In this document: positions 7,860 to 52,232 of the stretch, one piece after another
Numbering within the stretch: the first letter of the stretch is position 1
Layout of the letters: each line of letters begins with the position of its first letter
Assembly: GCF_000331005.1 (NCBI RefSeq)
Contig: NZ_AEJB01000123.1
Span: 1 to 64,000, forward strand
DNA: 64,000 nt
Direction: 5' to 3'
DNA from: Streptomyces turgidiscabies Car8
GTDB taxonomy: Bacteria; Actinomycetota; Actinomycetes; Streptomycetales; Streptomycetaceae
Translations under genes and position numbers: made by a program
Notes under the pieces: model-generated
Told to the model about the DNA's origin: nothing
Database searches by the model: none
Seen by the model: only the letters and a program-made list of their open reading frames with translations

Positions 7860-7888
7860 CTGCCCTGCCCTCTCAGTGATGGTGACCG

Positions 7889-10407: not shown

Positions 10408-10693
10408 GCTCCCCCCACCACATGCGCGGCTACCCCCCGATCGAAGTGCCCTCCACACAGCGACACTGGAAAGCGAGGGAGCGTGAGCGGTTCCCCAACC
10501 GCCTCATGCCCCCCAGCATGCTTTTCCTACAAGTTCAAATTCGTGCAAAAAGCCGCACCGTGACATGTAGTCAAGGACAAGTTCCCCACCCAAACCGGTC
10601 CGGCGGCACTCAATCTAGACCACCAAACGCAGTGACGGGAACGGTTGAACGAAACACACATCGCATTAGTGACACTGACGGCATACTGCCCAC
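10408..10693. promoter_or_regulatory. Divergent promoter region of the glycan operon and glycosyltransferase operon
   Basis: A relatively AT-rich 286-base gap separates the divergent genes. Toward the plus strand, CATACT (10682-10687) sits exactly six bases before the GTG start at 10694, the spacing of a -10 box for a leaderless message; no good -35 box was found. Toward the minus strand an AT-rich stretch around 10520-10560 would be the natural promoter site. Confidence 0.35.
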
Positions 10694-11542
10694 GTGACGA
10701 GCATCGTGATACCGGCCCACAACGAGGCACGAGTCATCGGCCGACTCCTCGATTCGCTGGTGGCCGACTCCCCCGAGGACGAGACCGACATCGTGGTCGT
10801 GTGCAACGGCTGCACGGACGACACCGCGGGAATCGCGGCCGCGTACGGACCGCGCGTCCGGGTGGTCGAGATCCCCACCCCCTCGAAGCACGCCGCTCTG
10901 CGGGCGGGCGACGACCACGCGCACGGCTTCCCCCGCCTCTATGTGGACGCCGACGTCGTGATCACGGGCGCGGACGTACGGGCGCTGACCGAGCCCCTGG
11001 ACGACGACACTTCGGACATCCTCGCCACCGCGCCCGACCGGCGGATCCCGCTGGCCGGCTGCGCCTGGCGGGTCCGCGCCTACTACCGGGTGTGGCAGCG
11101 GCTCCCCGCCGTCCGTGAGGGGCTGTTCGGCCGGGGCGTCATCGCGGTCTCCAAGACCGGGCACGCCAGGATCGCCGCGCTGCCGCCGCTGATGGCGGAC
11201 GACCTGGCCGCGTCCCTGGCGTTCACCCCGCAGGAGAGGCTCGTGGTCGACGGGGCCGCTGTCGTGGTCCACCCGCCGCGCACCTGGCCGGACCTGATGA
11301 GACGGCGCGTCCGGGCCGCGGTGTCCACCGCCCAGGTGGAACAGCACCAGGGACCGGAGGAAGCCACGGCGCGCACGAGCGTGGCGGATCTGAAAGCCCT
11401 GGTCCGCAGGGATCCGAAGCTCCTGCCCAGTGTCGTAGTCTTCGTCGCGGCGGCGGTCGCGGCCCGGCGGAAGGCCGGAAAGGCCATCCGAGCACAGGAC
11501 TTCGGCACCTGGCTACGGGACGAGAGCAGCCGGCAGAACTGA
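10694..11542 (+). CDS. Family 2 glycosyltransferase
   Basis: A 282-residue GT-A fold glycosyltransferase. MTSIVIPAHNEARVIG opens the nucleotide-binding domain, VVVCNGCTDDT follows, and YVDADV contains the DxD-like metal site. No clear membrane segment is seen except a weak one near 245-260, so it is probably cytoplasmic or peripheral. Acceptor unknown. It starts a three-gene plus-strand group (24-base gap to the next gene) facing the glycan operon and may help to build the same product. The GTG start appears leaderless. Confidence 0.85.
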   Translation: MTSIVIPAHNEARVIGRLLDSLVADSPEDETDIVVVCNGCTDDTAGIAAAYGPRVRVVEIPTPSKHAALRAGDDHAHGFPRLYVDADVVITGADVRALTEPLDDDTSDILATAPDRRIPLAGCAWRVRAYYRVWQRLPAVREGLFGRGVIAVSKTGHARIAALPPLMADDLAASLAFTPQERLVVDGAAVVVHPPRTWPDLMRRRVRAAVSTAQVEQHQGPEEATARTSVADLKALVRRDPKLLPSVVVFVAAAVAARRKAGKAIRAQDFGTWLRDESSRQN

Positions 11543-11566
11543 GCACCGCACCTGGAGTTCCCGATC

Positions 11567-12838
11567 ATGTATCTCACCGACCGTTCCGCCCCCGCACAGG
11601 CGGACACCGAACAGGGCCGAAGACGTGGCCCGGGGCGCAGGGTCGCCCCGGTGGTGCTCGTGCTCGGCTCGGTCAGCCTGATAACCGACATCTCCTCGGA
11701 GATGGTCACCGCCGTTCTGCCGCTCTACCTCGTCACCACCCTCGGCTTCACCCCGCTGGTGTTCGGCACCCTCGACGGGGTCTACAACGGCGTCAGCGCG
11801 CTGGTCCAGCTCACCGGCGGCCACATCGCCGACCGGGTGCGCAACCACAAGCTGATGGCCGGGCTCGGGTACGGCCTGTCCGCGCTGTGCAAGCCGCTGC
11901 TCCTGCTCGTGAGCAGCATCGGCGCCCTCGGCACAATCCTCGCCCTGGACCGCACCGGCAAGGGTCTGCGTACCGCCCCGCGCGACGCGATGATCTCCCT
12001 GTCCACGCCTCCCGAGCGGCAGGGCCGCGCCTTCGGCGTGCACCGGGCGATGGACACCACGGGCGCGATGCTGGGCCCGCTGGCCGCCTTCTTCATCCTG
12101 CGCGCGGCGACCGACGGCTACGACGCCGTGTTCGGCGTGAGCGCGTGCGTCGCCGTGCTCGGTGTGCTCGTACTGGTGCTGTTCGTACCGGGCAGACGGC
12201 GGGACGAGCAGCCGCCCGAAGCGGACGCGGCCGACGGCAGACCGCCCGTGCGCGTACGGGAAGCGCTGGCCCTGCTGCGGATCCCCCGGCTGCGGGCGCT
12301 CGCCCTCTGCGCGGCGCTCCTCGGCCTGACGACGGTCAGCGACGCCTTCGTCTACCTGCTCCTGCAACGGCGCGCCGGCATCGCCGACGAGTGGTTCCCG
12401 CTGCTGCCGCTGGGCACCGCCGCCGTGTTCCTGCTGCTGGCCGTGCCCTTCGGCGCGCTGGCCGACCGGGTCGGGCGCCGCACCGTCTTCCTCGCCGGGC
12501 ACGTCAGTCTGCTCACCGGCTACGGCCTGCTGCTGTGGGCCCCGGCCACGCCGGCCCTGCCCTTCCTCGTACTCGCCCTGCACGGCGTGTTCTACGCGGC
12601 AACCGACGGCGTGCTGCCGGCCGCTCTCGCCGACGTCGTGCCCGAGCAACTGCGCGCCAGCGGCCTCGCCATCGTCGGGACCAGCCAGGCGCTGGCCCGG
12701 TTCTGCTGCTCACTCGCCTTCGGCGCCGCCTGGACGGTGTGGGGCGACGGTCCCGCGCTCGCCGGCTCGGCGGTCGGTCTGCTGTGCTGCGCGGTCGTCG
12801 CGGGCATGGTCCTGCGGCCGAGCGGTGAGACCCGATGA
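11567..12838 (+). CDS. MFS transporter (12 membrane segments)
   Basis: A 423-residue major facilitator protein with two sets of about six hydrophobic helices. GGHIADRVRNHKLM and, in the second half, GALADRVGRRTVF are the typical loop 2-3 signatures, and LDRTGKGLRTAPRDAM lies in the first half. Such drug-resistance-like MFS proteins export small molecules by proton exchange; the substrate is unknown. It lies between a glycosyltransferase and a TolB-like protein, apparently in one transcript. Confidence 0.85.
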   Translation: MYLTDRSAPAQADTEQGRRRGPGRRVAPVVLVLGSVSLITDISSEMVTAVLPLYLVTTLGFTPLVFGTLDGVYNGVSALVQLTGGHIADRVRNHKLMAGLGYGLSALCKPLLLLVSSIGALGTILALDRTGKGLRTAPRDAMISLSTPPERQGRAFGVHRAMDTTGAMLGPLAAFFILRAATDGYDAVFGVSACVAVLGVLVLVLFVPGRRRDEQPPEADAADGRPPVRVREALALLRIPRLRALALCAALLGLTTVSDAFVYLLLQRRAGIADEWFPLLPLGTAAVFLLLAVPFGALADRVGRRTVFLAGHVSLLTGYGLLLWAPATPALPFLVLALHGVFYAATDGVLPAALADVVPEQLRASGLAIVGTSQALARFCCSLAFGAAWTVWGDGPALAGSAVGLLCCAVVAGMVLRPSGETR

Positions 12839-12869
12839 CCACCACAGCCACGACGCCCCAAGGATCCGG

Positions 12870-13892
12870 ATGACTTCGCTGCGCCGCCGCCTGCTCATAC
12901 TCGTCGCGGGAGTGCTGGTCCTCGCGGGCGTGGGAACCGGTGTGGTCCTGCACGCCGCCGACCGTGCTGACCGGGCGAACCGGTCGCAGCCCGGCGGGCC
13001 CGCCGTCAGTACGGGCAGGCTGACACTCGACCAGAAGAGCCGCCTGACGTTCGTCAACGCCGCCGCCGGCCCGCACCGCACGGCGGTCGCCTCGGTCCCG
13101 TCCACCGACCCCGGCGCCGGCCGGACCGCCTCGGACCTGAAGTGCGCGCGCTTCTACGCGGCGGCCGGCACAGGCGTCTGCCTCCAGTCCGTCCCCGGGG
13201 TCCTGAAGCAGAGCAACCGCGCCCTGCTCCTGGACGCGAACCTCCGCACCGTACGCACCTACCCGCTCGCGGGCGCCCCCAGCCGGGCCCGGGTCTCCCC
13301 CAGTGGCCGCTTCGTCGCCTGGACCGTCTTCGTGTCCGGCGAGTCCTACGCTTCCGCCTTCTTCTCCACCCGGACCTCGGTCCTGGACACCCGCACCATG
13401 AAGCTGACGCCGAGCCTGGAGACGTTCTCCGTCGTCCTGGACGGCAAGCCGTACCGCGCCTCGGACGTCAACTTCTGGGGCGTCACCTTCGCCGCCGACG
13501 ACGACACCTTCTACGCCACCCTCAACACCGGCAACAAGACGTATCTGGTCCGGGGTTCGCTGTCCGAGCGCAAGGTCACCACCCTGATCGAGAACGTGGA
13601 GTGCCCCTCGCTCTCCCCGGACGGGACGCGTGTCGCCTTCAAGAAGCGGGTCCTGTCCCGTACGGCCCTGTGGCACGAGTACGTCCTCGACCTCGGCACG
13701 CTCAAGGAAACAGCGCTCGCCGAACGCCACAGCGTCGACGACCAGGCCACCTGGCTCGACGACGACACGATCGCCTACGCCCTGCCCACCGACGGCAAGG
13801 TCGGCAGCAGCGACCTGTGGACCGTGCCCGCGAACGGCACGGGCAGCCCCCGTCTGCTGATCGCCGGGGCCTCGTCCCCGGCGCCCCTGTAG
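12870..13892 (+). CDS. Membrane-anchored TolB-like beta-propeller protein
   Basis: A 340-residue protein with one N-terminal hydrophobic anchor (LLILVAGVLVLAGVGTGVVL) and an extracytoplasmic region with repeated PD40-like blades (for example ARVSPSGRFVAWTVF and CPSLSPDGTRVAFK). Such propellers bind proteins or glycans; no enzyme motif is seen. ATG 12870 is preceded by AAGGATCCGG as ribosome site. A GTG at 12825 in the same frame would add 15 residues and overlap the MFS gene, but has a poorer ribosome site. Last gene before the strong terminator. Confidence 0.7.
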   Translation: MTSLRRRLLILVAGVLVLAGVGTGVVLHAADRADRANRSQPGGPAVSTGRLTLDQKSRLTFVNAAAGPHRTAVASVPSTDPGAGRTASDLKCARFYAAAGTGVCLQSVPGVLKQSNRALLLDANLRTVRTYPLAGAPSRARVSPSGRFVAWTVFVSGESYASAFFSTRTSVLDTRTMKLTPSLETFSVVLDGKPYRASDVNFWGVTFAADDDTFYATLNTGNKTYLVRGSLSERKVTTLIENVECPSLSPDGTRVAFKKRVLSRTALWHEYVLDLGTLKETALAERHSVDDQATWLDDDTIAYALPTDGKVGSSDLWTVPANGTGSPRLLIAGASSPAPL

Positions 13893-13910
13893 ACGGCGAA
13901 GGGCGGTGAC

Positions 13911-13941
13911 ACGCCCGCGTCCACCTGGTGGACGCGGGCGT
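13911..13941. terminator. Perfect 15-bp hairpin between convergent operons
   Basis: ACGCCCGCGTCCACC (13911-13925) pairs without mismatch with GGTGGACGCGGGCGT (13927-13941) around a single central base. It sits 18 bases after the TolB-like stop and 20 bases from the stop of the convergent SGNH hydrolase gene, so it can serve both directions. Confidence 0.8.
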
Positions 13942-13961
13942 ACGGGCCTGTTCGCCGGGGT

Positions 13962-15245
13962 TCAGGGAGCGTCGCGGTCGCAGGACAGATCCGGCAGCCG
14001 TACCGCGTCGGCCATCGCCTGCATTCCGGTGTCGTTCGGGTGCAGGTGATCGCCGTTGTCGAAGAACGGCAGGATCCGCTCCTGGTCGTAGGGGCTGCGC
14101 AGGACGCGGTCGAAGTCGGCCACGGCGTCGAACTCGCCGCCGCCACGGATGAATTCGTTGACCTCCCGTCGTACGGCCTCGGCCGGCGCGTCCCACTCGG
14201 ACCAGCCCTTGAAGGGACCGACCGTGGCCCCGACGACACAAACGCCGGCCGCATGGGCTCGGTTGATGATCCGGCGGTAGCCGTCGATCAGATCCGCGGC
14301 CGTGACACCGGTGTGGGCCTTGATGTCGTTGACCCCCTCGAAGAGGAGGACCGTGCGGACGCCGGGGTGGGAGAGCACGTCCCGGTGCAGTCTGTTCAGG
14401 GCGCTCTGCCCGGCTCCGTCGGCGAGGACCTTGTTACCGGAGATCCCCTCGTTGGCCACTCCCCCGATGCCGGTGCCGGCGCCCGCGTCGGTCTGGAGAC
14501 GACGGGCCAGGTAGTCGGGCCAGCGCCGGTTCAGGCCGGTGCTGGACTGCCAGCCGTCGGTGATGGAGTCGCCCAGAGCGACGACCGCCCCGACGTCCGA
14601 GCCGGTCCGCACGGTGACGGCGTCCAGGTGGAACCAGGAGCCGGTGGTGCCGGTCCAGTTGTCCGGGCCCTCCTCCGCCACGTGATCGCCCGTGGAGGTG
14701 TAGGACGTCTGCATGGCCATACCGTGCCCCGTCGCCGGGCCGCCCGCCTCCGCCGCGTACAGGCTGACCGCCAGCGAGGTGGCGGCCGGCAGCCGTCCGG
14801 GCAGCGGATCGCTGAGCACGGTCTCACCGGCGGGCACGGTGACGGACCACTTCCCGCCGAACGCCAGAGGCCTGTTGCTGCCCCGGACCAGGGCGGCACC
14901 CTCCTTCTGTACGCCCACGTACGCCCGGCCGAGAGTCAGGGGCCGGTCGCCGAAGGCGTTGGACAGCCTGACACGCAGGTGGGTTCCGCCCGCACTGGTC
15001 CGTACGACGAGCCGGTAACCGCGGTCCGAGGCGGCCTCGCCCATCCGGTCGGCGCTCGCACCCCAGGTGACGATCTCGTGCGTCAGGGCAGTCGCGGAAC
15101 TCGTGGCATTGGCGGAATTCGGGGCACTCGCGGCAGGGGCTGCCGTCGCCGATCCGGTCAACAGCTGCGCGGCGGCGGCATACGCGACCACTGGCACGGC
15201 GAGCCGCCGCAGTACGCCCGCGACGCTGACGGTGTGCCGACGCAC
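13962..15245 (-). CDS. Secreted SGNH/GDSL-family hydrolase
   Basis: A 427-residue exported esterase or lipase-like enzyme. A signal peptide occupies about residues 1-36. An N-terminal beta domain (about 55-210) precedes the SGNH domain: VALGDSITDGW (S227 nucleophile), GISGNK (block II), GVNDIK (block III) and DHLHPND with D399 and H402 (block V). Proteins of this layout deacylate polysaccharides or other esters. It starts 4 bases after the GH95 stop in the same operon, so removing acyl groups from a plant or microbial glycan is plausible. Confidence 0.88.
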   Translation of the reverse strand: MRRHTVSVAGVLRRLAVPVVAYAAAAQLLTGSATAAPAASAPNSANATSSATALTHEIVTWGASADRMGEAASDRGYRLVVRTSAGGTHLRVRLSNAFGDRPLTLGRAYVGVQKEGAALVRGSNRPLAFGGKWSVTVPAGETVLSDPLPGRLPAATSLAVSLYAAEAGGPATGHGMAMQTSYTSTGDHVAEEGPDNWTGTTGSWFHLDAVTVRTGSDVGAVVALGDSITDGWQSSTGLNRRWPDYLARRLQTDAGAGTGIGGVANEGISGNKVLADGAGQSALNRLHRDVLSHPGVRTVLLFEGVNDIKAHTGVTAADLIDGYRRIINRAHAAGVCVVGATVGPFKGWSEWDAPAEAVRREVNEFIRGGGEFDAVADFDRVLRSPYDQERILPFFDNGDHLHPNDTGMQAMADAVRLPDLSCDRDAP

Positions 15246-41425: not shown

Positions 41426-41556
41426 CACCGCGCGGCCCGACACATGCGCGAATGCCGCTGCGGTGCGCGTCGCTGTCGTGCACCGCGCACCGCGCACCGT
41501 GCCTGGAGCGCGACGGAGCGGTGACAACCACTGGTGCCGGGCACGAAGGTGTTCGC

Positions 41557-42324
41557 ATGGTGCTGCGCTATCGGACCAACGGTCCGGAGTTCGACTTCCC
41601 GCCCTTCGCAGGTCTGCCGCCGGTCCGTTACGTGCTCGCGTCGACCCCCCGGTGCGGCAGCAACATGCTTGCCCGCGCCCTGTGGCACACCGGGCTGGCC
41701 GGTTTCGCCGAGGACTACTTCGCCGACGCCTTCGTGCTGGACTACTTCGAGCGGTGGGGATTCGACTCCAGCGATCCGCAGGAGTTGGCTGCGGCCTACG
41801 TGCAGCGGCTCATGACGTGCCGGACCAGCCCCAACGGCGTGTTCGGGCTGCGGATCCACGCGGGGCACCTCGGGAGCCTGGAGGTCGACCCGTACGACAT
41901 CCTCCAGGCACCCCGGTACATCTGGATCCGACGCGGGGACCGGTTGCGGCAGGCCGTGTCGTACACCATGGCCGAGCAGACCGGTGTCTGGATCCTGGAC
42001 GGGACCCTTCTGCCGGAGGGGCGTGTGCGCGCCGCTCCCCGGTACAGCTATGAGGAGATCGGCCGGCATCTGCGACTGCTCGACCGCGACGCGTCCGTCT
42101 GGGAGGACTACTTCGGCAGGCACGGTGTCGTCCCGCATGTCGTCGTCTACGAGGACTTGGTCGCGGACTACGAGGCGGGCCTGCTGGGCTGCCTCGACTT
42201 CCTCGGCGTCGGCGCGCCCGAGTCGGTGCCGGCTCCGGGGATCAGGCGTCAGGCCGACGAGTTGACGGAACGGTGGGTCGAGAGGTTCCTACGGGATCGT
42301 CGTGCTGAGCGGCCAGCGTCGTAG
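41557..42324 (+). CDS. Stf0-type sulfotransferase
   Basis: A 255-residue PAPS-dependent sulfotransferase. STPRCGSNMLARAL is the 5'-phosphosulfate loop; FGLRIHAGHL, YIWIRRGDRLRQAVSY (3'-phosphate binding) and YEDLVADYE follow the Stf0 pattern. The best-studied member sulfates trehalose. Here it ends convergently inside the DUF5825 gene of the RiPP cluster, sharing 36 bases. A tailoring role on the tyrosine-rich peptide is possible but only by position. ATG is preceded by GAAGG. Confidence 0.85.
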   Translation: MVLRYRTNGPEFDFPPFAGLPPVRYVLASTPRCGSNMLARALWHTGLAGFAEDYFADAFVLDYFERWGFDSSDPQELAAAYVQRLMTCRTSPNGVFGLRIHAGHLGSLEVDPYDILQAPRYIWIRRGDRLRQAVSYTMAEQTGVWILDGTLLPEGRVRAAPRYSYEEIGRHLRLLDRDASVWEDYFGRHGVVPHVVVYEDLVADYEAGLLGCLDFLGVGAPESVPAPGIRRQADELTERWVERFLRDRRAERPAS

Positions 42325-42936
42325 GCGGTACGGCGTCCACCACAGGTAGCGCCCGGCGCGGTGGAGCAGGTTTTCACGCAGGTGACGTTCCAGCGCACGC
42401 TCCGTCGACGCCGACGCGACCGCCGGGACGCCGTCCAGCAGCCCCTGGAACGCCGTGCTCCGGGGGGCGTGGACGACCAGGCGTCGGAACGAGCCCCAGC
42501 GGTGGTCGCGGATCTCCAGGAAACCGGGGCCGCGGCGGTAGCCGCACTTCGCGACATGGAACGAGCCGCGCCATGCGGTGACCACGCGTTCGTCGTTCTC
42601 CTCTCCCGTGGAGCCGCGGAAGACGCCTGCCGGGGGATGCAGATGACTCAGCGCCCGCCACTGGGCCGGGTCGGCCATGCGCAGTGTCCAGTCCACCGCG
42701 ATGCCGTGGCTGGTGAGTTCCCGGACGACGAGGAGGACTGCGACCGCGGACGCGCCGTCCGGATCGGTGAGGTCCACGGGTTCGTGCACCTGGACGAACT
42801 GGACGCCGTCGGCGGCGACTCGTCCGACGGCGGCCACCGGGTCGTCGGGCAGCCCTTCGAGGGTGCCGCAGCGGATGCCCGGCAGGCGCATGGCCGCCGG
42901 ATCGCGGTCCTTCCACAGCGTCAGCGCCGGTTTCAT
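42289..42936 (-). CDS. DUF5825-type protein of RiPP radical SAM clusters
   Basis: A 215-residue soluble protein without catalytic motif that I can see. Features are SLTLWKDRDPAAMRLPG-like start (here LTLWKDRDPAAMRLPG), a VQFVQVHEPVDLTDPDG core and the aromatic, Arg-rich end YLWWTPYRLRRW. I assign it to DUF5825 from memory of the pattern; this family accompanies RiPP-maturation radical SAM C-methyltransferases. Its ATG overlaps the stop of that enzyme here (ATGA), so it is probably an accessory or partner protein. Last gene of the RiPP operon. Confidence 0.65.
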   Translation of the reverse strand: MKPALTLWKDRDPAAMRLPGIRCGTLEGLPDDPVAAVGRVAADGVQFVQVHEPVDLTDPDGASAVAVLLVVRELTSHGIAVDWTLRMADPAQWRALSHLHPPAGVFRGSTGEENDERVVTAWRGSFHVAKCGYRRGPGFLEIRDHRWGSFRRLVVHAPRSTAFQGLLDGVPAVASASTERALERHLRENLLHRAGRYLWWTPYRLRRWPLSTTIP

Positions 42937-44885
42937 CGGGTGTCTCCCCCTCCCGGGGTCGCCAGGGCGGGGACGAGCGACGTGTCGTCCCCGTGCAGTC
43001 CGTCGCCGTCGAGCCGCAGCAGGTCCTGGTTGGCCACGGCGGGCGCGACCTGGACGTACTGGCCGCCCTCGGCGAAGACCAGGCCGAGGGCGCGCCAGCG
43101 CGCCAGCAGCCCGGTGAGGCGCTCCTCCGTCACCTCTCCGGCAGGTTCCCCCGCGTTCGCGCCCCGGGCAGCGGCTTTGCGCAGCAGCGCCGCCGGGCTG
43201 TGCGGTGTGTCGAGCAGCCGGAACACCGTCACTTCGAGCGGGTCGGTGAGGTCGAGGAGCCGCCAGGAGAAGCCCGGCCGGGTGTCGACCAGGACGATGT
43301 GTCCGCCGAGGTCGCAGTGGGTCAGGCGGCTGCGCGAGTACGCCCGCGTCCAACTGGCGACGGCCGTGCGCAGCCGGTTCAGGCAGCCGTCGGCGATGCC
43401 CTGGTGCGGTGAGTCGAAGATGTAGACCAGGTCGGCGAGCTCGTTCTCCGGCAGGTCGTAGATGTGGTGGTAGTGCGAGGCGGGGCGCAGTTCGCCGAAG
43501 CCCAGTTCCGGCCGGTCGAAGTAGGGGCTGAACCGCTCGACCTTCAGCCGGGTGGAGTTGGCCGGTGGTCCGAGGTGGTGCAGCGCGGGCAGCTGGTCGA
43601 TTATCTCGTCGTAGTCCTGCTCGGTCTCCCCGGGGAAGCCGTAGAGGTAGTTCCAGCTGAGGTTGACGCCGATGGTCTCCGCGTCCCGCAGCAGCCGTAC
43701 GTTCTGGCAGCCGGTCACCCCCTTGTCCATCAGTTTCAGCACCCGGCTGCTGAGGCTCTCCACGCCGGGCTGCACGTAGCTGATACCGGCCGCGTACAGC
43801 GTCGCCAGCTGCTCGCGCCGCAGGTTCGACTTGATCTCGTAGCACAGCCGCAGGTCGTACCCGGACTCCTGGAGAAGGGGGGCCATGGAGTTGAGGTAGG
43901 CCATGTCGAGGATGTTGTCGGTGACCCACACGTCGAGTACGCGGTGGCGCTCGACCAGGCCGAGGATCTCCTCCACGAACCGCCGTGGGTCCTTGCTGCG
44001 GAACTCCATGAACGAGCCGTTGAGGCCGCAGAAGGTGCAGTGGTGCTTCTCGCCCCACCAGCAGCCTCGCGAGCCCTCCACCACCAGCCGCGGCTCCACC
44101 CAGCCGCCCGCGGTGGACCGCGCGTGCCGCTCGAAGTAGTCGCCGTAGTCCGGGGTGACCAGTGCTCCCGGGGGCAGCGGGGCGGCGTCCATGAGATGGG
44201 CCACGGACCGGCCGTGCGGATCACGGCGGCACAGGCCGGGGATGGCGGCCAGGTCGTCGGTGTCACCGTCGCGGAGCGCGGCGAGCAGTCGCGGGAAGGC
44301 GATCTCGCCCTCGCCGCGCACCACGAAGTCGACCTGGGGGAAGTTTCGGTGCAGCGCGGCGCCCTGCGGGCCGTCGCAGTTCGCGCCGCCGAAGACGGTG
44401 GTGGTGCCGGGTGCCAGTTCCTTGACCACGCGGGCTGCGGCGAGGGTGGCCGCGTTCTGCGCGAACGTGGTGGTGAAGCCGACCACGTCCGGTGCCGTGG
44501 CGGCGATCTTGGCAGCTGTCTCCCGGACGAACAGTGGCGCGAGTTCGTGCAGTTCCCGCGCTTTGGCCAGCATGCGCTCCGGTATCCTCCCGCCGAAGTG
44601 TTCCGTGAACTCCGCCACCCGCCAACGGGGTTGACCGTTGAGGGCGGCGGAGAAGATCCACTCACTGTGTCCGGAGAAGTACGAGGACGCGCAGAAGTCG
44701 TACTCCTCGAAGCCGTACTCGGTACGAGCGGCCACCCAGTCGGCGAAGTCGAGGTTGGCGTGCACCACCTCGACGTCCGCGGCTCCGTCGGGAAAGACGT
44801 CGAGGATCCGGCGTCTGAGAATGCCGAGTGCGAGGGACGGCGCGTCGAGCGACGACCACGGCATGTCCACCAACACGATGTGCAA
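42933..44885 (-). CDS. RiPP-maturation radical SAM C-methyltransferase (rSAM_ocin type)
   Basis: A 650-residue B12-dependent radical SAM enzyme. N-terminal HIVLVDMPWSSLDAPSLALG and FGGANCDG belong to the cobalamin-binding half. The cluster motif GCWWGEKHHCTFCG supplies C275, C283 and C286 (C-x7-C-x2-C), the uncommon spacing characteristic of this family. GVESLS, GFPGET and a C-terminal winged-helix-like tail follow. It should methylate unactivated carbons of the precursor. Start TTG 44885 has GGGGAGAGG eight bases upstream and gives the usual N terminus; a GTG at 44906 forming GTGA with the upstream stop is the alternative. Confidence 0.88.
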   Translation of the reverse strand: MHIVLVDMPWSSLDAPSLALGILRRRILDVFPDGAADVEVVHANLDFADWVAARTEYGFEEYDFCASSYFSGHSEWIFSAALNGQPRWRVAEFTEHFGGRIPERMLAKARELHELAPLFVRETAAKIAATAPDVVGFTTTFAQNAATLAAARVVKELAPGTTTVFGGANCDGPQGAALHRNFPQVDFVVRGEGEIAFPRLLAALRDGDTDDLAAIPGLCRRDPHGRSVAHLMDAAPLPPGALVTPDYGDYFERHARSTAGGWVEPRLVVEGSRGCWWGEKHHCTFCGLNGSFMEFRSKDPRRFVEEILGLVERHRVLDVWVTDNILDMAYLNSMAPLLQESGYDLRLCYEIKSNLRREQLATLYAAGISYVQPGVESLSSRVLKLMDKGVTGCQNVRLLRDAETIGVNLSWNYLYGFPGETEQDYDEIIDQLPALHHLGPPANSTRLKVERFSPYFDRPELGFGELRPASHYHHIYDLPENELADLVYIFDSPHQGIADGCLNRLRTAVASWTRAYSRSRLTHCDLGGHIVLVDTRPGFSWRLLDLTDPLEVTVFRLLDTPHSPAALLRKAAARGANAGEPAGEVTEERLTGLLARWRALGLVFAEGGQYVQVAPAVANQDLLRLDGDGLHGDDTSLVPALATPGGGDTR

Positions 44886-44902
44886 GGCGGTTCCTCTCCC
44901 CG

Positions 44903-45694
44903 TCACCACAGTCCGCGGCGTGCCAGCGCCCGCCGCGCGGTCTCCCGCCGGGCCGTCGGTTCGGCCTCGAAGGCCGCCGCCACCCGCCCGGACACCACGC
45001 CGTGAGCCAGTCCCTGGGACGTGGTGAAGTACGCGTATTCCACTGCTTCCGTGTTCGCGGCAAGCTCGGTGGCCTCGGTGCCTCCTGTGCCGGCACGCTC
45101 CCCCGGGGTCGTCCCCCACGTGGCCACGGACGCCGCCGCGTAGGCACGCAGGGCGGCGTGGCCTCGGTCGGTGGGGACGATTCCCTCCGCCTCGATCACG
45201 AACGACAGCGGCTGCTCGCATGTCAGCGCGGTGAACAGGGCGATCATCAGCTCGTGGGTCACCGTGTCGCGCAGCGCCCCCGCACCGGCGTCGTCCAGCA
45301 GGTAGGACGCGAACGCCTCCTCCGCCGACAACCCGGGAGCGGTGTACGGGATCAGCCGGAACCGGGAGAAGTGCTGCGAGCCGAGGAATCCGGTGAGCAG
45401 GCAGGACTCCGTGGCACCGGCGTCCTGGAGCAGCTTCAGACTGCGCGGGAACGTGGTCGCGAGACTGCCTCCGCTGCCGGGCCGCCACACCTGGGAGCGC
45501 AGCCGGCGCGCGGTGATGTCCAGTTCGGCCAGGTCGACGGAGGCCAGGCACTCCAGCTCGCCGGGATCCGCCGCCACGCCCCCGGCGCCCTCCTCGGCGA
45601 GCCGGGCCCTCAGGTCCGTGTCCAGCAGAAGCCGTAGGAGCAGGTCGGTCAGCCGCTCGCCGTCCAGCGACGCGCCCGGCTCCACCGTGCTCAC
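44903..45694 (-). CDS. Unassigned RiPP protein, probable partner of the DUF692/MNIO enzyme
   Basis: A 263-residue soluble protein I do not recognise. A helical N terminus (LTDLLLRLLLDTDLRARLAEEG) is followed by ITARRLRSQVWRPGSGG and a helical body; there is one Cys in ECLASVD and others near TESCLL and TCEQPL. MNIO enzymes normally need a small partner protein encoded next door (MbnC, ApyI and similar), and this gene overlaps the MNIO stop as GTGA with ribosome site GGAGG. A role in binding the precursor leader is inferred from position only. Confidence 0.7.
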   Translation of the reverse strand: MSTVEPGASLDGERLTDLLLRLLLDTDLRARLAEEGAGGVAADPGELECLASVDLAELDITARRLRSQVWRPGSGGSLATTFPRSLKLLQDAGATESCLLTGFLGSQHFSRFRLIPYTAPGLSAEEAFASYLLDDAGAGALRDTVTHELMIALFTALTCEQPLSFVIEAEGIVPTDRGHAALRAYAAASVATWGTTPGERAGTGGTEATELAANTEAVEYAYFTTSQGLAHGVVSGRVAAAFEAEPTARRETARRALARRGLW

Positions 45695-46707
45695 GCCACC
45701 TCCCCGCGCTGCCAGGCGGCGACAATGTCCCGCAGCCGCGCGTAGTTGCGCCGGGACTTCTCGACCAGTTGTCCGTCCTCGCGGTACATCGGGTCCTCGT
45801 AGGTCACCCCGAGGAGGTTCGGGCAACGCGGCAGCAGATACTCGGTGAGATCCACCTGCTCGTCCAACAGGACGCCGTGGTGCAGGTCGCGGAATCTGCC
45901 TCCCACGATCTGGCAGCCCGAAAGGTGCAGCTCCCGGCAACGGGCCAGGGGCAGCGCCTCGATCCCGTCGTACATGCTGCTTCCGGTACGTCCTCTCAGC
46001 CACTGGTAGCTGAGCAGATGGCCGACATCGAGCGTCACCCACACGTCGGCGTCCTGAGCCAGCCGGGCGAAGTACCCGAAGGCGTCCATGTGTCCGAGGA
46101 CGAACGAGCCGCCTTCGGTGAAGCCGGGGAACTCGACATGCAGCGGCGGATCGAGCAGCCGGGCCGCCTCCGCCACGTTCCGGGTGGCGATCTCCAGCCC
46201 CGGCTCGGTCAGCGGCGGCGGGAGCGGATAGGGCATCGGTATGCCGCGCAGGCTCCAGATGCCCAGGTCCTCGACCACCCAGGAGAAGCCGTAGCGGGCG
46301 GCCAGTTCGTTGGTGAACTCGGCGGCCGGGCGGCGGTCGTAGCGCTCGGGCGTGCCCATGTTCAGCTCGGTCTGGTGGAAAGCGCGGGCCGACCCGGCAG
46401 GCAGCGCCTCGAAGAAGCGGTCGTACGCGCGCACGTAGTCGGCCGTCCGTACGCGGGCGCGCGAGCGCGGCTGGAACGCGAGGGCCGAGTAGGCGAAGTC
46501 GCCGCCGTGGCGGCTCAGGAAGGCGCGGACCCGGTCGGTGATGTCTCCGCCGCCGTCGTCGCTCTCCACGAATCCGACACCGCGCCTGCCGAGGCGTCCG
46601 CCGCCCCACGGCATGTCCATCAGTACCCCCAGGCCCATTCGACGCGGGGATTCGGTGACGGTGACGGTTCGGGCGCCGCCGGGTGCGGAGCGCGGCGGTT
46701 GTGTCAT
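45691..46707 (-). CDS. DUF692-family multinuclear iron oxidative enzyme (MNIO)
   Basis: A 338-residue TIM-barrel protein. Segments that align by eye with DUF692 enzymes: FHQTELNMG (H111), VVEDLGIW (E146, D147), LHVEFPGF (E192), VTLDVGHLL (D227, H230), ELHLSGCQ (H261), FRDLHHGVL (H277) and VTYEDPMY (E304), the expected His/Asp/Glu metal ligands in order. The N-terminal ligand region is divergent from textbook members. MNIOs oxidise Cys, Asp or Asn in RiPP precursors; with no Cys in this precursor, Asp is the natural target. ATG follows AGGAG and overlaps the upstream stop. Confidence 0.8.
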   Translation of the reverse strand: MTQPPRSAPGGARTVTVTESPRRMGLGVLMDMPWGGGRLGRRGVGFVESDDGGGDITDRVRAFLSRHGGDFAYSALAFQPRSRARVRTADYVRAYDRFFEALPAGSARAFHQTELNMGTPERYDRRPAAEFTNELAARYGFSWVVEDLGIWSLRGIPMPYPLPPPLTEPGLEIATRNVAEAARLLDPPLHVEFPGFTEGGSFVLGHMDAFGYFARLAQDADVWVTLDVGHLLSYQWLRGRTGSSMYDGIEALPLARCRELHLSGCQIVGGRFRDLHHGVLLDEQVDLTEYLLPRCPNLLGVTYEDPMYREDGQLVEKSRRNYARLRDIVAAWQRGEVA

Positions 46708-48713
46708 GACGAGCTCCTGGCTGAGGGGGCCGGGTCGGCCGAACGGGCCGGGTCGGGGGTGCCCGCTGCCGCGTCGGCCAGGCGGGCCAGCAGTCGGCTG
46801 CCACGGTCGGTGCGGGCCGTGAGCAGGCCGTCGGCGCCCTGTTCCACGTCGGTGCGGGGAAGCGCGTAGAACCGCTCGCGGACGACGTCGGCGAGGGTGA
46901 CGCGGTCTGCCGTACGGTCGTCGGCGTGCGCGGGCACGGTGCGTACCCACGGGTGCGGGCGCAGGGCCGCGACGGCTGGCGCGCGACGGTCGTCCGGGGC
47001 GGGGCTGGAGGGTGCCGAGGCGTTCGTACGGCCCGGCCTGACGGTGCGGAAGGTCCGTATCAGCCGGTCCAGTGCCTCGGTGCGTGTCGGGCCGCCGCGG
47101 ACCGCGAGCGGGCGGCCGACCCGGCCGGCCAGGTAGCTGAGCTCGGGGTTGCCCGCGAGGCGGTCCGAGGTGTCGAGGGCGAGGCCGTAGTCCTGCGGGC
47201 CGGTCACGAGTCTGCTGCCGGGCTCCGCCACCATCAGTTCCAGCGCGTCGATGTCGATCCGCCGCTCGTTGTCGACGAGGAAGCGCAGGGATGCCTCGAA
47301 CTCGTCCGGCGTCTCGTCCAGGACCTGGCCCATCACGGTGAACCGGACGGCGATGCCCGCTGCGGCGAGGTTGTCGAGGATCCGCTGGTAGTCGGCCGCG
47401 CGCACGCCCCGCTCCAGCCGGTCCAGCAGGCGCTGCGAGGTGCCCTCGTAGCCGACCGCGATCATCGCGCAGCCGGCGGTGGAGAGGTCGTGGCAGAACG
47501 CCGGGTCGGTCAGGACGGCCTCCAGCCGGCTGCGTACGCCGAACCGGACCCGGATGCCACGGTCGCGTGTCGCACGCATGGCCTTCAGGATCAGCCGCAG
47601 GTTGGTGTTCTCGTCCGCGACCGACACGTACCGGGTGCCCGTGGCACGCACCACGGCCTCCACGGCGTCGGCGATCTGGGCCGCGGTGCCCTGCTGGTAC
47701 CCGCCTTGCGGAAGCGACCGGTTGCCGTACGAGCAGAACGCGCAGCGTCCCCAGTAGCAGCCGACGCAGGAGACGATCGCGAGTTCCAGGGCGTCGTTGA
47801 GATAGGAGCGGAACGGCAGTCCGGTGAAGTCCGGAGGTCCGAGATCACGGAAGCGCAGGGTCACCGGGGGACCCGTGCGCGGCCCGGCATCGGAACGTGG
47901 CAGCCAGGTCATGCCGGGCACGGCGGCGAGCGGAAACGTCCCGTCCAGCGCGTCCAGCCAGCGTTCGAGCGGCTCCTCCCCGGCGGTTGTGCAGAGGGCG
48001 TCGACCGTTGCCCGGACGCCGGGCAGCCGGACGAGGCTGTCGTGACGGAGCATCACCTGCTGACCGCCCAGACAGATCCGGGTGTCCGGCGCCAACTGCC
48101 GGACCCAGGCGGCGATCAGCAGCGCGGGCGCGAGCTGGCTGAAGAAGGCCACAGACAGACCGACCACGCGGGGGCGATGCCGGCCGAGCAGCCCGGTCAC
48201 CAGGCGGTGCAGCACTGCGACCGGTACGCCCGACGCGACGGGCGGCTCGTCCGCGGCCCGGCGTACGGCATCGTCGAGTCGGCCGAGGTCCTGCCAGGTC
48301 CGGGCCAGGAAGGTGTCGCGGACCAGTAGTTCGAGGGCCAGGGTGGCGAGCCGAACCGCGCGGTGGGGGCCCAGCTCGCCGACCGACTCCTTGTGCAGGA
48401 CGTGGGCACGCAGCTCGCCGATGTGCGCGGCGAACACGTCGGCCACCGCTCGGTGATACCAGTGGCTCGCGGCCGTACCGTCGTCGCCCGCGTCCTGGGC
48501 CCGGACCGCGTCGTCCAGCAGCGTGGGACATCGCAGCAGCTCGTGGAGCACGGCGATGTTCAGGTCGGCCTGGTGAACCTGCCGAGCCCGGCGCCGCAGG
48601 TGGCCGGTCAGGTAGGGCAGGCTCAGATACGGGAAGAACCTGGCCTCGGTCTGCGGCGGAAAGATCAACAGGACGTCGGTGCGGGTACGGTCCACCGACC
48701 GGCTGGACGGCAC
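46704..48713 (-). CDS. B12-binding-type radical SAM protein of the RiPP cluster
   Basis: A 669-residue protein. TDVLLIFPPQ and VVGLSVAFFSQLAPALLIAA with CLGGQQV form a cobalamin-binding-like N-terminal half. The iron-sulfur motif is SCVGCYWGRCAFCSYGN: C316, C319, C324, C327, that is C-x4-C-x2-C plus one extra upstream Cys, differing from the second enzyme. YVSVADENTNL and VGYEGTSQRLL follow in the barrel, and a long C-terminal extension with a PxHPWVRT segment ends it. Reaction unknown; peptide C-methylation or another radical step. GTG start follows GAGGAGGCAGGTC, 61 bases after the precursor gene. Confidence 0.83.
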   Translation of the reverse strand: MPSSRSVDRTRTDVLLIFPPQTEARFFPYLSLPYLTGHLRRRARQVHQADLNIAVLHELLRCPTLLDDAVRAQDAGDDGTAASHWYHRAVADVFAAHIGELRAHVLHKESVGELGPHRAVRLATLALELLVRDTFLARTWQDLGRLDDAVRRAADEPPVASGVPVAVLHRLVTGLLGRHRPRVVGLSVAFFSQLAPALLIAAWVRQLAPDTRICLGGQQVMLRHDSLVRLPGVRATVDALCTTAGEEPLERWLDALDGTFPLAAVPGMTWLPRSDAGPRTGPPVTLRFRDLGPPDFTGLPFRSYLNDALELAIVSCVGCYWGRCAFCSYGNRSLPQGGYQQGTAAQIADAVEAVVRATGTRYVSVADENTNLRLILKAMRATRDRGIRVRFGVRSRLEAVLTDPAFCHDLSTAGCAMIAVGYEGTSQRLLDRLERGVRAADYQRILDNLAAAGIAVRFTVMGQVLDETPDEFEASLRFLVDNERRIDIDALELMVAEPGSRLVTGPQDYGLALDTSDRLAGNPELSYLAGRVGRPLAVRGGPTRTEALDRLIRTFRTVRPGRTNASAPSSPAPDDRRAPAVAALRPHPWVRTVPAHADDRTADRVTLADVVRERFYALPRTDVEQGADGLLTARTDRGSRLLARLADAAAGTPDPARSADPAPSARSSS

Positions 48714-48774
48714 GACCTGCCTCCTCGTCTCAACCGGTCTCGTCCGTCGGAGAGTTGCCGTGCTCCCGGGATTC

Positions 48775-48927
48775 CTAGTCGGGGATGTCGTCCGTGCTCT
48801 CCGCCGCGATGTAGGTGTACGTGTGGTACGCCGCGCCGAGCTTCAACTCGCTGGAATCGATCACCTGGAGTTCTTCGAGTTCACCGAATTCCTCATCGGC
48901 GAGTTTCTCAGGAGATGCAGCGGTCAT
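48775..48927 (-). CDS. RiPP precursor peptide (50 residues, no Cys, C-terminal Asp)
   Basis: A 50-codon gene with ribosome site GGGGAG nine bases before ATG. Residues 1-30 form an acidic, helix-prone leader (EKLADEEFGELEELQVID) typical of RiPP leaders recognised by LanB and partner proteins. From about residue 31 the likely core is GAAYHTYTYIAAESTDDIPD: tyrosines 34, 37, 39; Thr 36, 38, 45 and Ser 44 for LanB; Asp 46, 47 and the terminal D50 for the MNIO. There is no cysteine, so no lanthionine, thioether or thiooxazole can form. First gene of the minus-strand operon. Confidence 0.85.
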   Translation of the reverse strand: MTAASPEKLADEEFGELEELQVIDSSELKLGAAYHTYTYIAAESTDDIPD

Positions 48928-48985
48928 GATTTTCTCCCCTTCGCAAATGTGCCGGGAATGTGCCGCGTGCCGTGTGCGGCGCCCC

Positions 48986-49036
48986 ATGCTAGCCAGACGG
49001 CACGCGCGACAACAGCCCAAACGTCGTCGTTCGGGC
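48986..49036 (-). promoter_or_regulatory. Promoter and inverted repeat upstream of the precursor gene
   Basis: On the minus strand TGTTGT (49014-49009) and TAGCAT (48991-48986) are 17 bases apart, giving a leader of about 50 bases. Directly upstream, GCCCAAACG (49015-49023) and CGTTCGGGC (49028-49036) form a 9-bp inverted repeat with one mismatch and a 4-base centre, placed like an activator or operator site. Confidence 0.4.
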
Positions 49037-49113
49037 TGAAGGGTGTTCGCCCAGGTCAGCGACTCATGGGGACACCGCACCACCGGATTGCGCAGCAACG
49101 ACGCCAAATGACC

Positions 49114-49125
49114 ATGACTCATAAT
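49114..49125 (+). promoter_or_regulatory. -10 box of the LanB gene with overlapping palindrome
   Basis: CATAAT (49120-49125) is the only good -10 match upstream of the dehydratase gene, and the palindrome ATGACTCAT (49114-49122) overlaps it. No clear -35 box. The implied start near 49132 leaves about 47 bases before the GTG at 49179. Confidence 0.35.
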
Positions 49126-49178
49126 CACCCCCGCCGCCGCGCACCTTGGGAAGATCAAAGGTCGAGGACAACGCCGTC

Positions 49179-52100
49179 GTGCTGCTGGAGGGCTGTTTGT
49201 ACCGCCATGTCGATGCGGCCGTGGTCCGGGCGGCAGTCTGGCGTCCCGACCACCCGGTGGTCTGGCCGGACCTGACCGGCCCGTACGCGCACACGGAATC
49301 GTGGCGAGCATGGCTTCAACAGACGTGGCAGGCAACCGACTTCGCCACCGCGGTCGAGTTCTCCAGTCCGGACCTGGCGAGACGGGTGCGTCAGATATGC
49401 GTCGGCGAGCCGGTGCCGGACCTCGCCGTGCGGCGCGCGGTGCTCTCGGTGGTGCGCTACCTGCTGCGCGCCCGCTCACGTGCCACTCCGTTCGGTCTGT
49501 TCGCCGGTGTCGCCGCCGCCCGCACAGGGGCCGCTCCAGTGCTGCGCGCGGGCACCGGACACCGGGCGGTCACCAGACCGGAGGCGGCTTGGACCGCGGC
49601 TCTTGTCGACGGGTTGGAGGAACACCCTGCGCTCCGGCCCCGGTTGACGCTGCTCGCTTCCGGCCTCGCGTTCGAGCGCGACGGACGCCTGACGGTCGAG
49701 CACCGCGCAAGCAGTACGAACGACAATGGCCCGCTGCACGTGGGGATACGCGCGACGGGACCGGTCCGCATGGCCATGGACATCGCACGTGCGCCGGTCG
49801 CGTGGACAGTTCTTGCCGAAGCGCTCTCCGGCGGTTTCCCGGCCGCGTCGCCCACCGCGATCGAGACTCTGCTCGCGAACCTGGTACGACAGCGCTTCCT
49901 GATCACCAGTCTGCGCCCTGCGGTCACGGCCTCCGATCCGATCGCCGCCCTGCTCGGACAGATACAGCACCTGCCCGCGGCCGAAGCCGAAGTCGGCGAG
50001 TTGTGCGAGGTCGCGGCGGAACTGGCACGGCACGACGACGCCACCGTCGCCCCCGCGGGCGCCCGCGCCAAACGCGCACAGGTGACGGCCGCGATGACAC
50101 GGCTCTGTCCCACCGCGAAACCCACGCTCGCCCTCGACCTGCGGCTGGACTGGGACCTGGTGATCCCGGAGGCGGTGGCCGAGGAGGCGGCGTCGGCCGC
50201 CGCCGTGCTCACGCGCCTGGCGCCACGGGCCGCGCTGAGCCCCGGATGGACTGCCTGGCACAGCCGCTTCCTCGAGCACTACGGCCCTGGAGCGGTGGTA
50301 CCCGTCCTGAACGCCATCGACCTCCTCGGCTACCCGTCCGGCTACCTCGGGTCCACAGCCGCGTCGACGGGCCCGACGCTGACCGCACGCGACGGCCGGC
50401 TGCTGAGGCTCGCGTACACCGCCGCGACGCGTCGCCGCCACCACGTCCTACTCGATGACACCGCGATCGACGAACTGGCGGTGGTGGATCCCGGCAGGCC
50501 CGTGCAGCCGAGCACCGAGGTGACCGTGCGGATCCACGCCGCGAGCGTATCCGCCCTCGAACAAGGGGAGTTCGCGCTGCACGTCGTCGGGGTGGCCCGC
50601 GCGGCCGGAACGGCCACCGGGCGCTTTCTCCCCCTGTTCGACGCCGAGGACCGCCGCCGGATGACCGACTCGTACGCCGGTCTGCCCGGCGTACAACAGG
50701 ACGCGCTGATCGCGCAGATCAGTACCACCCCGCTGTACATACGCTCGGTGAACGTCGCGCACGCCCCACAGGCGGCGGGGACGGTGATCCCCCTCGGCGA
50801 CTACCACGGCCCGGACACGGACCAGGTACCCGTGACGGACCTGGCGGTGACCGCCGATACCGAGCGGCTGCACCTGGTCTCGGTCTCCCGCCGCCGCCCC
50901 GTGCACACGATGCTGCTGAACGCCGTGGATCTGACCCACCACACTCATCCGCTGGCACGGTTCCTGATCGAGGCACCGGTGGCACTGTCCGTCCCGTGCA
51001 CCGGGTTCTCGTGGGGAGCGGCCGTGTCCAGCCTGCCCTTCCTCCCCGCACTGCGCTACGGACGCACCGTACTGTCGCCGGCCCGCTGGACACTCGGCGT
51101 CGACGACCTGCCCGACGTACGGACGCCGTGGCCGCAGTGGGACGAGGCCCTGGCCGAATGGCGCCGTGAGGTCCTCCTGCCCCAGCACGTGTACCTGGGC
51201 GACGGAGACCGGCGCATGAACCTGGATCTGGCGGAGTCCTCGCACCGGGTCCTGCTCCGTACGCACGTGGAGCGCGACGGCAGGGCACTGCTACGTGCCG
51301 CGCCGAAGCCCGGGGACCTGGGCTGGACCGGCGGGCGCGCCCACGAGATCGTCATACCCCTGGCCGCTGTGGGCCGGACCCGCGCACCCGTCAGCGCACC
51401 GGGCGACGTCGTCGGCCGGGAGTACGGCCGCCTGCCTGGCTGCGGCGACCTGCTCTCCCTCAGGCTGCACGGACACCGCGACCGTCATAACCCGCTCCTG
51501 ACCCGGCATCTGCCGTCCCTGCTCGAGGAGTTGGGAGAACCCCGCTGGTGGTTCGTTCGTCACCGTGATCCCGAGGACCACCTACGTCTGCATCTGACCT
51601 GCGCGCCCGGTTCAGTCGGCACCGCTGTCGGGCAGATCGGCGAGTGGACCCGGCGGCTTCGGCACGCGGGCCTGATCACCCACACGAGCCTGGAGACCTA
51701 CTACCCGCAGACCACGCGCTTCGGCGGCCCCGCGGTCATGGAAGCCGCCGAGGAGTATTTCGCCGCCGACTCCGCCGCCGTCCTCGCCCAACTGACCGCG
51801 CAGGCGGGGCGTGGAGCTCCCGACGTCCGTGCGGTGACTGCCGCGAGCATGGTGGACATCGCCGTCGGCCTGCTCGGGGACGACAGAAAGGCGATGCGCT
51901 GGCTGGTCGGGCACACCCACACGGACAGGAGCGCCCCACCCCGAGCGGTCTACGACGAGACCATCGCCCTGGCGACCGCCCCCCTCACGCCCCAGACCCC
52001 CGGAACTCCGGTGCTGGACGCGCGCGTCACCGCGAGCTGGTCCGCACGCCGCACAGCACTGGCCGCCTACCGCAGCGCGCTCGAGGGTGCGGGGACGCTG

Positions 52101-52232
52101 CCCCCTCAGGACCTGCTCCCGGACCTGCTGCATCTCCACCACGTCCGCATGTGCGGGCCAGGACTACCCGAGGAACGCGCACACCTGCACCTGGCCAGAG
52201 CCGCCGCACTGAGCTGGACGGCACGCGGCTGA
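49179..52232 (+). CDS. Full-length LanB-type lantibiotic dehydratase
   Basis: A protein of about 1017 residues that dehydrates Ser and Thr through glutamyl-tRNA-dependent glutamylation then elimination. The N-terminal glutamylation domain starts CLYRHVDAAVVRAAVWRP and includes RARSRATPFGLFAG. The C-terminal SpaB/thiopeptide-type elimination domain (from about 770) has WWFVRHRDPEDHLRLHL, TYYPQTTRFGG and HLHHVRM. Both halves are present, so it should be self-sufficient. GTG 49179 is chosen because GAGGA precedes it and the -10 box ends at 49125; TTG 49146 would add 11 residues without a ribosome site. Divergent from the precursor operon. No LanC is encoded nearby. Confidence 0.87.
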   Translation: MLLEGCLYRHVDAAVVRAAVWRPDHPVVWPDLTGPYAHTESWRAWLQQTWQATDFATAVEFSSPDLARRVRQICVGEPVPDLAVRRAVLSVVRYLLRARSRATPFGLFAGVAAARTGAAPVLRAGTGHRAVTRPEAAWTAALVDGLEEHPALRPRLTLLASGLAFERDGRLTVEHRASSTNDNGPLHVGIRATGPVRMAMDIARAPVAWTVLAEALSGGFPAASPTAIETLLANLVRQRFLITSLRPAVTASDPIAALLGQIQHLPAAEAEVGELCEVAAELARHDDATVAPAGARAKRAQVTAAMTRLCPTAKPTLALDLRLDWDLVIPEAVAEEAASAAAVLTRLAPRAALSPGWTAWHSRFLEHYGPGAVVPVLNAIDLLGYPSGYLGSTAASTGPTLTARDGRLLRLAYTAATRRRHHVLLDDTAIDELAVVDPGRPVQPSTEVTVRIHAASVSALEQGEFALHVVGVARAAGTATGRFLPLFDAEDRRRMTDSYAGLPGVQQDALIAQISTTPLYIRSVNVAHAPQAAGTVIPLGDYHGPDTDQVPVTDLAVTADTERLHLVSVSRRRPVHTMLLNAVDLTHHTHPLARFLIEAPVALSVPCTGFSWGAAVSSLPFLPALRYGRTVLSPARWTLGVDDLPDVRTPWPQWDEALAEWRREVLLPQHVYLGDGDRRMNLDLAESSHRVLLRTHVERDGRALLRAAPKPGDLGWTGGRAHEIVIPLAAVGRTRAPVSAPGDVVGREYGRLPGCGDLLSLRLHGHRDRHNPLLTRHLPSLLEELGEPRWWFVRHRDPEDHLRLHLTCAPGSVGTAVGQIGEWTRRLRHAGLITHTSLETYYPQTTRFGGPAVMEAAEEYFAADSAAVLAQLTAQAGRGAPDVRAVTAASMVDIAVGLLGDDRKAMRWLVGHTHTDRSAPPRAVYDETIALATAPLTPQTPGTPVLDARVTASWSARRTALAAYRSALEGAGTLPPQDLLPDLLHLHHVRMCGPGLPEERAHLHLARAAALSWTARG

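Follow-up and report, generated by a model that had tools for sequence, protein, structure and literature searches.

Eight genes at positions 41,557 to 52,232 of a 64,000-nucleotide stretch of Streptomyces turgidiscabies Car8 DNA (contig NZ_AEJB01000123.1, positions 1 to 64,000; here called the window) appear, with a probability of about 0.72 on sequence comparison, to form one cassette for a ribosomally synthesized and post-translationally modified peptide (RiPP). We assign the locus to the YHxYxY branch of the biphenomycin-like clusters, extended by a full-length LanB dehydratase and an Stf0-family sulfotransferase. That the core belongs to this described class is close to certain from its homologies; the addition of LanB and Stf0 is the new part. 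The original prediction had named seven of the genes, among them a Cys-free precursor of 50 residues, and had presented them as a RiPP cluster matching no characterized pathway. All seven are present and in place; the sulfotransferase gene had been missed. The claim of novelty was too strong for the core, which has been published without LanB or Stf0; the addition of these two is unreported in the literature searched.

In the main text of PMC12257519 (JACS 2025), biphenomycin-like clusters that combine a multinuclear nonheme iron-dependent oxidative enzyme (MNIO), a partner protein and a B12-type radical SAM enzyme (rSAM) have precursors with FHAFRF, FHTFMF or YHx1Yx2Y motifs, and the clusters of the last kind also contain a second B12-type rSAM and a DUF5825 protein. 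The window precursor has the core motif YHTYTY at residues 34–39, which fits the published definition (x1 S/T/A, x2 T/V/A). The clusters of this branch described by Padhi et al. 2025, such as the stg biosynthetic gene cluster (YHTYTY), agree with the window in precursor motif, both B12-type rSAMs, MNIO, partner and DUF5825 (PMC12257519). That main text mentions neither LanB nor a sulfotransferase, although the supplementary figures may draw them. LanB or Stf0 in YHxYxY clusters is equally unreported in the wider literature searched, which included PMC12707348, PMC12452194 and PMC13174530 and stopped short of the supplement of PMC12257519; a search for Stf0 together with RiPPs gave papers on other subjects only, judged by the listing. 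The pbs and bip biphenomycin clusters share the MNIO–partner–rSAM core, a related leader and an aromatic core motif, but differ in the FHAFRF core itself and in having an arginase, an Orn hydroxylase, a TldD-type protease and an MFS transporter (available text of PMC12257519 and PMC12707348).

Six of the genes form a minus-strand operon in the order precursor (48775–48927), rSAM1 (46704–48713), MNIO (45691–46707), partner protein (44903–45694), rSAM2 (42933–44885, with an assumed TTG start) and DUF5825 protein (42289–42936). Neighboring genes overlap by 4 bases at three of the five junctions (rSAM1/MNIO, MNIO/partner and rSAM2/DUF5825), as had been said of most junctions, and gaps of 17 and 61 bases separate partner from rSAM2 and precursor from rSAM1. 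The LanB gene (49146–52232, plus strand) diverges from the precursor, and the Stf0 gene (41557–42324, plus strand) is convergent with the DUF5825 gene, which it overlaps by 36 bases. When the 64-kb window was compared by blastn with six Streptomyces relatives, each gave a single alignment at 88–95% identity, starting at 41436–41523 and ending at 52225 in all six; the longest of these (41436–52225) defines the conserved cassette. Its limits lie just ahead of Stf0 and 7 bases short of the LanB end, and the eight genes, with no arginase among them, occupy the whole block. No further alignment of the window was found at E 1e-10 to the 4–6 kb of the relatives' flanks examined. The cassette, with flanking DNA that differs in all six relatives, appears from this to move as a unit. 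Because the conserved block stops at the LanB end while the flanks differ, LanB travels with it.

Scanning 84,980 species genomes with a profile yielded 25 loci with MNIOs 43–96% identical to that of the window, and 11 of 392 genomes of its own genus had a match, the window's own included. Loci found twice were counted once (L013=L023, L015=L031, L016=L033, L017=L032, L018=L043, L020=L042), and L021 (MNIO 31%) was not used further. Fourteen clusters carry a YHxYxY precursor: seven from Streptomyces with YHTYTY, including the window, five from Nonomuraea and one from Embleya with YHSYTY, and one from Streptomyces sp. CB02923 with YHAYVY. Twelve further loci have FHAFRF (11 of the profile scan, with MNIOs 48–73% identical to that of the window, plus L019), and three (L044–L046) have no YH/FH precursor motif and stand in neither group. 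Plasmids gave no tblastn match at 1e-15, and in a phylum sample of 396 genomes searched at 1e-60 only the window's own genome matched. The window precursor is 90–98% identical to those of six other Streptomyces and is still recognizable in Nonomuraea, Embleya and CB02923; because it is conserved across these genomes, its reading frame is more than a chance one. The pair of rSAM2 and DUF5825 is found in 14 of 14 YHxYxY clusters. The 12 FHAFRF loci show neither DUF5825 nor, in the flanks examined, LanB or Stf0. A true second rSAM is likewise missing from them, the rSAM2 matches reaching at most 26% identity and falling mostly at the rSAM1 site.

Two kinds of locus stood apart in this survey. In L024 (Streptomyces sp. 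P3), at 4500–15140, the LanB, rSAM1, rSAM2, DUF5825, Stf0 and partner genes align in pieces or with stops, and the MNIO and precursor read through, so that either the assembly is of low quality or the cluster is decaying. Because of these breaks L024 was omitted from both trees described below, but it is included in the count of 14 clusters and in that of the 11 with LanB. L045 and L046, both from Nonomuraea, have at about 10000–11450 an MNIO (53–54% identical) and a partner, with no match to rSAM1 and, in the DNA examined (L046 ends at a contig end), no YH/FH motif or DUF5825; they perhaps represent another MNIO pathway.

The MNIO (DUF692; PF05114, 46.3 bits against a cutoff of 25) is of PbsC-like type. 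In an alignment of nine MNIOs, the nine predicted PbsC iron-ligand positions map with a constant offset of 14 to invariant residues, which in the window are H111, D147, E192, D227, H230, H261, D274, H276 and E304. The Pbs MNIO–partner pair hydroxylates Phe or Tyr rings, which the B12-type rSAM then joins; both reactions were shown on FHAFRF precursors and for the YTY variant of PbsA3, modelled on a YHTYTY precursor (main text of PMC12257519). The most likely roles here, by homology, would therefore be hydroxylation of Tyr rings by the MNIO and joining of Tyr37 to Tyr39 by rSAM1.

The original prediction had proposed an oxidized Asp instead. The RiPP cluster of the aminopyruvatide system, too, pairs an MNIO with a B12-type rSAM-like enzyme, and on that model the MNIO of the window would oxidize Asp and both rSAMs would be methyltransferases. 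The precursor does end in Asp, and the MNIO shows weak similarity to the ApyH model (31.8 bits), as do the two rSAMs to the ApyD model (48.2 and 78.8 bits). However, these scores are far under the cutoffs of 400 and 750 bits, the C-terminal residue varies across the 14 clusters (D, E, G, A or V), rSAM1 corresponds to the rSAM of the FHAFRF clusters, and the MNIOs of YHxYxY clusters, whose motif goes with ring-hydroxylase-type MNIOs, group with PbsC in the network of PMC12257519 (main text). Asp oxidation is thus highly improbable, and the modification expected of this MNIO is Tyr-ring hydroxylation.

Its partner protein matches nothing in Pfam or NCBIfam, but is homologous to the gene that follows the MNIO in several FHAFRF loci (38–43% identity in L032 and L033, 21–26% in Bacillota). 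An AlphaFold model of fair quality (predicted local distance difference test, pLDDT, 82) has as its top structural matches the chains of TglHI, at Z 9.7 and 9.5 over 216 and 214 residues, among which the TglI chain is not distinguished. The entry 3dee scores Z 9.2 and the next unrelated one Z 3.1; the Foldseek E-values are weak (0.25 or worse), and Z values near 8 can be common. The modelled fold resembles the TglHI complex, consistent with a partner of PbsD/TglI type.

The two rSAMs probably do different work. Because rSAM1 (PF04055, 44.7 bits) matches the FHAFRF-cluster rSAM in position and by homology (30–55% identity, 34–36% for two Bacillota FHAFRF loci), it is more likely a PbsB/BipD-like biaryl cross-linker than the methyltransferase first proposed; its TIGR03975 score of 63.6 bits is below the cutoff of 281.85. 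rSAM2 passes that cutoff with 596.9 bits (rSAM_ocin) and carries a C-x7-C-x2-C motif. It and the DUF5825 protein (PF19142, 194 bits; AlphaFold model poor, pLDDT 51) are homologous to a pair in the clavusporin cluster, with which likeness was compared for the pair alone and whose members are said to C-methylate (PMC12257519, main text). Because of this homology, C-methylation by rSAM2 and DUF5825 is likely, as had been predicted.

LanB has both dehydratase domains of the class I lanthipeptide enzymes (PF04738, 654.7 bits; PF14028, 136.2 bits). Class I lanthipeptides, however, use Cys for (methyl)lanthionine and a LanC cyclase; the window precursor has no Cys, and Pfam gives no LanC in the conserved block or among the 10 open reading frames (ORFs) neighboring LanB, these being the ones scanned and LanC elsewhere in the genome not having been searched for. 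LanB very probably belongs to the cluster all the same, as its distribution suggests. It lies beside 11 of the 14 YHxYxY clusters, and a twelfth genome (Nonomuraea solani) has a LanB–Stf0 pair elsewhere. In four of the five Nonomuraea clusters, a LanB of 38–39% identity stands at the opposite cluster end, adjoining Stf0 on the same strand; the N. solani cluster has Stf0 only, the pair being on another contig. Across 54 Nonomuraea genomes, an MNIO of at least 80% identity occurs in five (three more have one at 54–55%), and the five genomes with the cluster are the only ones with a LanB of the cluster clade (at least 64%) and with a close Stf0 (61–64%; next best 38%). The cluster of the next Nonomuraea LanB (54%) includes a gene that looks LanC-like by eye and a small ORF that contains Cys. 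Among 150 genomes of the window's own genus, with the five best candidates per genome scored, a LanB of at least 85% identity occurs in exactly four, all with the cluster MNIO. The proposal that LanB is a chance neighbor was rejected on the block end at LanB, the LanB tree and the co-occurrence in Nonomuraea. The single RiPP cluster of the original prediction, LanB included, is therefore upheld by the block end and by co-inheritance. The pattern named as refuting it, homologous clusters that never keep LanB or the MNIO with this precursor, did not appear, but 2 of 14 are without a LanB of these clades.

The N. solani pair (L108, 7865–12392) is a second Stf0 adjoining LanB in a genome whose cluster keeps its own Stf0, and may have been duplicated or moved; no other cluster gene was matched in the 19.9 kb around it. 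The Embleya contig that bears the cluster also has a LanB at a distance of 37 kb (L106, 8946–12092), which falls in neither cluster LanB clade.

LanB, perhaps with Stf0, might still be a passenger, inherited with the cluster and acting on another substrate. It is divergent and outside the operon, the Embleya and CB02923 clusters do without it, and the closest outside LanBs belong to clusters of lanthipeptide type; of the four such loci gone through gene by gene, L116 and L119 show a Cys-rich precursor. We find this unlikely. The conserved block ends 7 bases short of the LanB end in six of six relatives, and in Nonomuraea LanBs of a different clade keep company with Stf0 at the other end of the cluster or, in the fifth genome, away from it. 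No LanC is found by Pfam near the window LanB, and by eye neither a LanC nor a precursor-like small ORF is found near LanB in L108 and L112. If each 9-Mb genome holds one LanB, the chance that two of four lineages would have it within 10 kb is roughly 3e-5.

The origin of the LanBs was examined with a tree of 46 sequences, made by a quick method; its background consisted of the LanBs most similar to that of the window and a small number from cluster genomes. L089 and L090, which duplicate L123 and L124, were removed, and L118, truncated at a contig end, was not included. Seven LanBs from lanthipeptide-type clusters form the sister group of the Streptomyces cluster LanBs (support 100), the nearest outside LanBs being 58–64% identical over most of their length. 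The Nonomuraea cluster LanBs, including the N. solani copy, form a separate clade (support 100). Because of this tree, LanB was probably recruited twice, from different clades in the two genera; the core-gene tree, which used 7 of the 12 FHAFRF loci and leaves the order of the four YHxYxY lineages unresolved, cannot tell one gain from two. The nearest LanB loci, presumably FxLD-type class I lanthipeptide clusters, gave no matches to MNIO, rSAM, DUF5825 or Stf0. In L116 (7933–8115) and L119 (8659–8844), a precursor-like gene with a Cys-rich end (e.g. CNSTCATACVSCP) lies beside LanB, and L114, L115, L116 and L119 have a methyltransferase-like gene; the methyltransferase-like genes, and the LanC of L153, were named by eye.

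The catalytic residues of LanB bear on whether it dehydrates fully. Positions R83, R87, T89 and R464, which we take to be those of the NisB glutamylation site, are kept in the cluster LanBs aligned, as are the equivalents of R784 and R826, two of what we take to be the NisB elimination residues (R784, R786, E823 and R826). At the E823 position, each of the six aligned LanBs from Streptomyces clusters has Q, where the sister clade and Nonomuraea have E; at R786, only the LanBs of the window and L023 have H. These substitutions count against a fully working dehydratase, and the Streptomyces-branch enzymes could stop at a glutamyl ester or be very slow. Yet R786 is kept in four of the six, the background LanBs L105 and L067 carry the same Q, and LanB is under purifying selection: its dN/dS is 0.34–0.41 and that of Stf0 0.25–0.49, similar to the other cluster genes. 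Incomplete dehydration is accordingly quite unlikely in our estimate. The dS of Stf0 falls within the range of the other genes; that of LanB does so in two of four comparisons and lies slightly above every other gene in the other two, a point against the proposed eight-gene cassette.

The Stf0 protein (PF09037, 113.2 bits against a cutoff of 22) matches the solved Stf0 structure 1tex at E 5.7e-11. Its gene lies inside the conserved block and is found in 13 of the 14 YHxYxY clusters, and we hold its membership of the cluster, on this evidence, as a strong presumption. The sole cluster without it is the one whose motif (YHAYVY) has no Ser or Thr; this pattern may point to sulfation of Ser/Thr rather than of a phenol, on one case. 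Obligatory coupling of Stf0 to LanB was rejected on the Embleya cluster, where Stf0 occurs and a LanB of these clades does not.

Several observations weigh against the assignment of the whole locus. The B12 domain of rSAM1 scores 15.6 bits in Pfam, below the cutoff of 32.1, and the conserved block holds neither a protease nor a transporter. The 14 clusters represent only four lineages, the five Nonomuraea being one clade, so their counts cannot be treated as independent. Within 10 kb of the Embleya cluster (YHSYTY) there is no LanB; CB02923 has no Stf0 beside its cluster and no LanB match genome-wide at E 1e-15. As these two clusters show, the class can do without LanB. The tail of the window precursor (IAAESTDDIPD) contains Thr45, and this tail Thr is shared by every one of the 12 clusters with a LanB of the two clades in the genome; the Embleya and CB02923 precursors have no Thr at that position and have Ser or Thr elsewhere in the tail. 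With four lineages, such tracking would arise by chance in about 1 case in 6, so it is a hint and not a test.

We infer the chemistry, the LanB and Stf0 targets and the order of steps from these comparisons; aromatic hydroxylation and biaryl coupling have been shown on relatives or variants (available text of PMC12257519 and PMC12707348). The leader (ELxxLxVI) would be bound by the partner protein, and the MNIO with this partner would hydroxylate the rings of Tyr37 and Tyr39. rSAM1 would then couple the two rings through a C–C bond, giving a Tyr-Thr-Tyr macrocycle, and rSAM2 with DUF5825 would add one or more C-methyl groups. LanB, having neither LanC nor Cys to work with, would dehydrate Thr, with Thr45 in the tail as the best guess and Thr36 or Thr38 otherwise. 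Stf0 would sulfate a phenol or a Ser/Thr, and leader removal and export would fall to genes outside the cassette. The best reading of the product is thus a Cys-free Tyr-Tyr biaryl peptide, ring-hydroxylated and C-methylated, and probably also dehydrated and sulfated.

A stronger proposal, for which we see about even odds, is that five enzyme systems, namely the MNIO, rSAM1 as cross-linker, rSAM2 with DUF5825 as methyltransferase, LanB working without LanC, and Stf0, act on one short Cys-free core to give a sulfated, dehydrobutyrine-bearing Tyr-Tyr biaryl macrocycle. Lanthipeptide-type LanBs would then have entered this pathway in two or more independent recruitments, the one in Nonomuraea taking the form of a mobile LanB–Stf0 module able to lie apart from the cluster. 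A bolder variant, in which Stf0 would place a sulfate on Thr/Ser that the LanB elimination domain then uses as its leaving group, is weakened by the Embleya cluster, where Stf0 occurs but such a LanB does not.

The biosynthesis of the biphenomycins, which are antibiotics, was reported as recently as 2025. The cassette described here suggests a natural, more decorated branch of that family, where a sulfotransferase and a dehydratase of lanthipeptide type would join an MNIO and two B12-type rSAMs on one core. Natural variants are available, without LanB in Embleya and without both additions in CB02923. As a small conserved system, it makes testable what LanB does without Cys and LanC, which substrate Stf0 takes, and where rSAM2 and DUF5825 would methylate.

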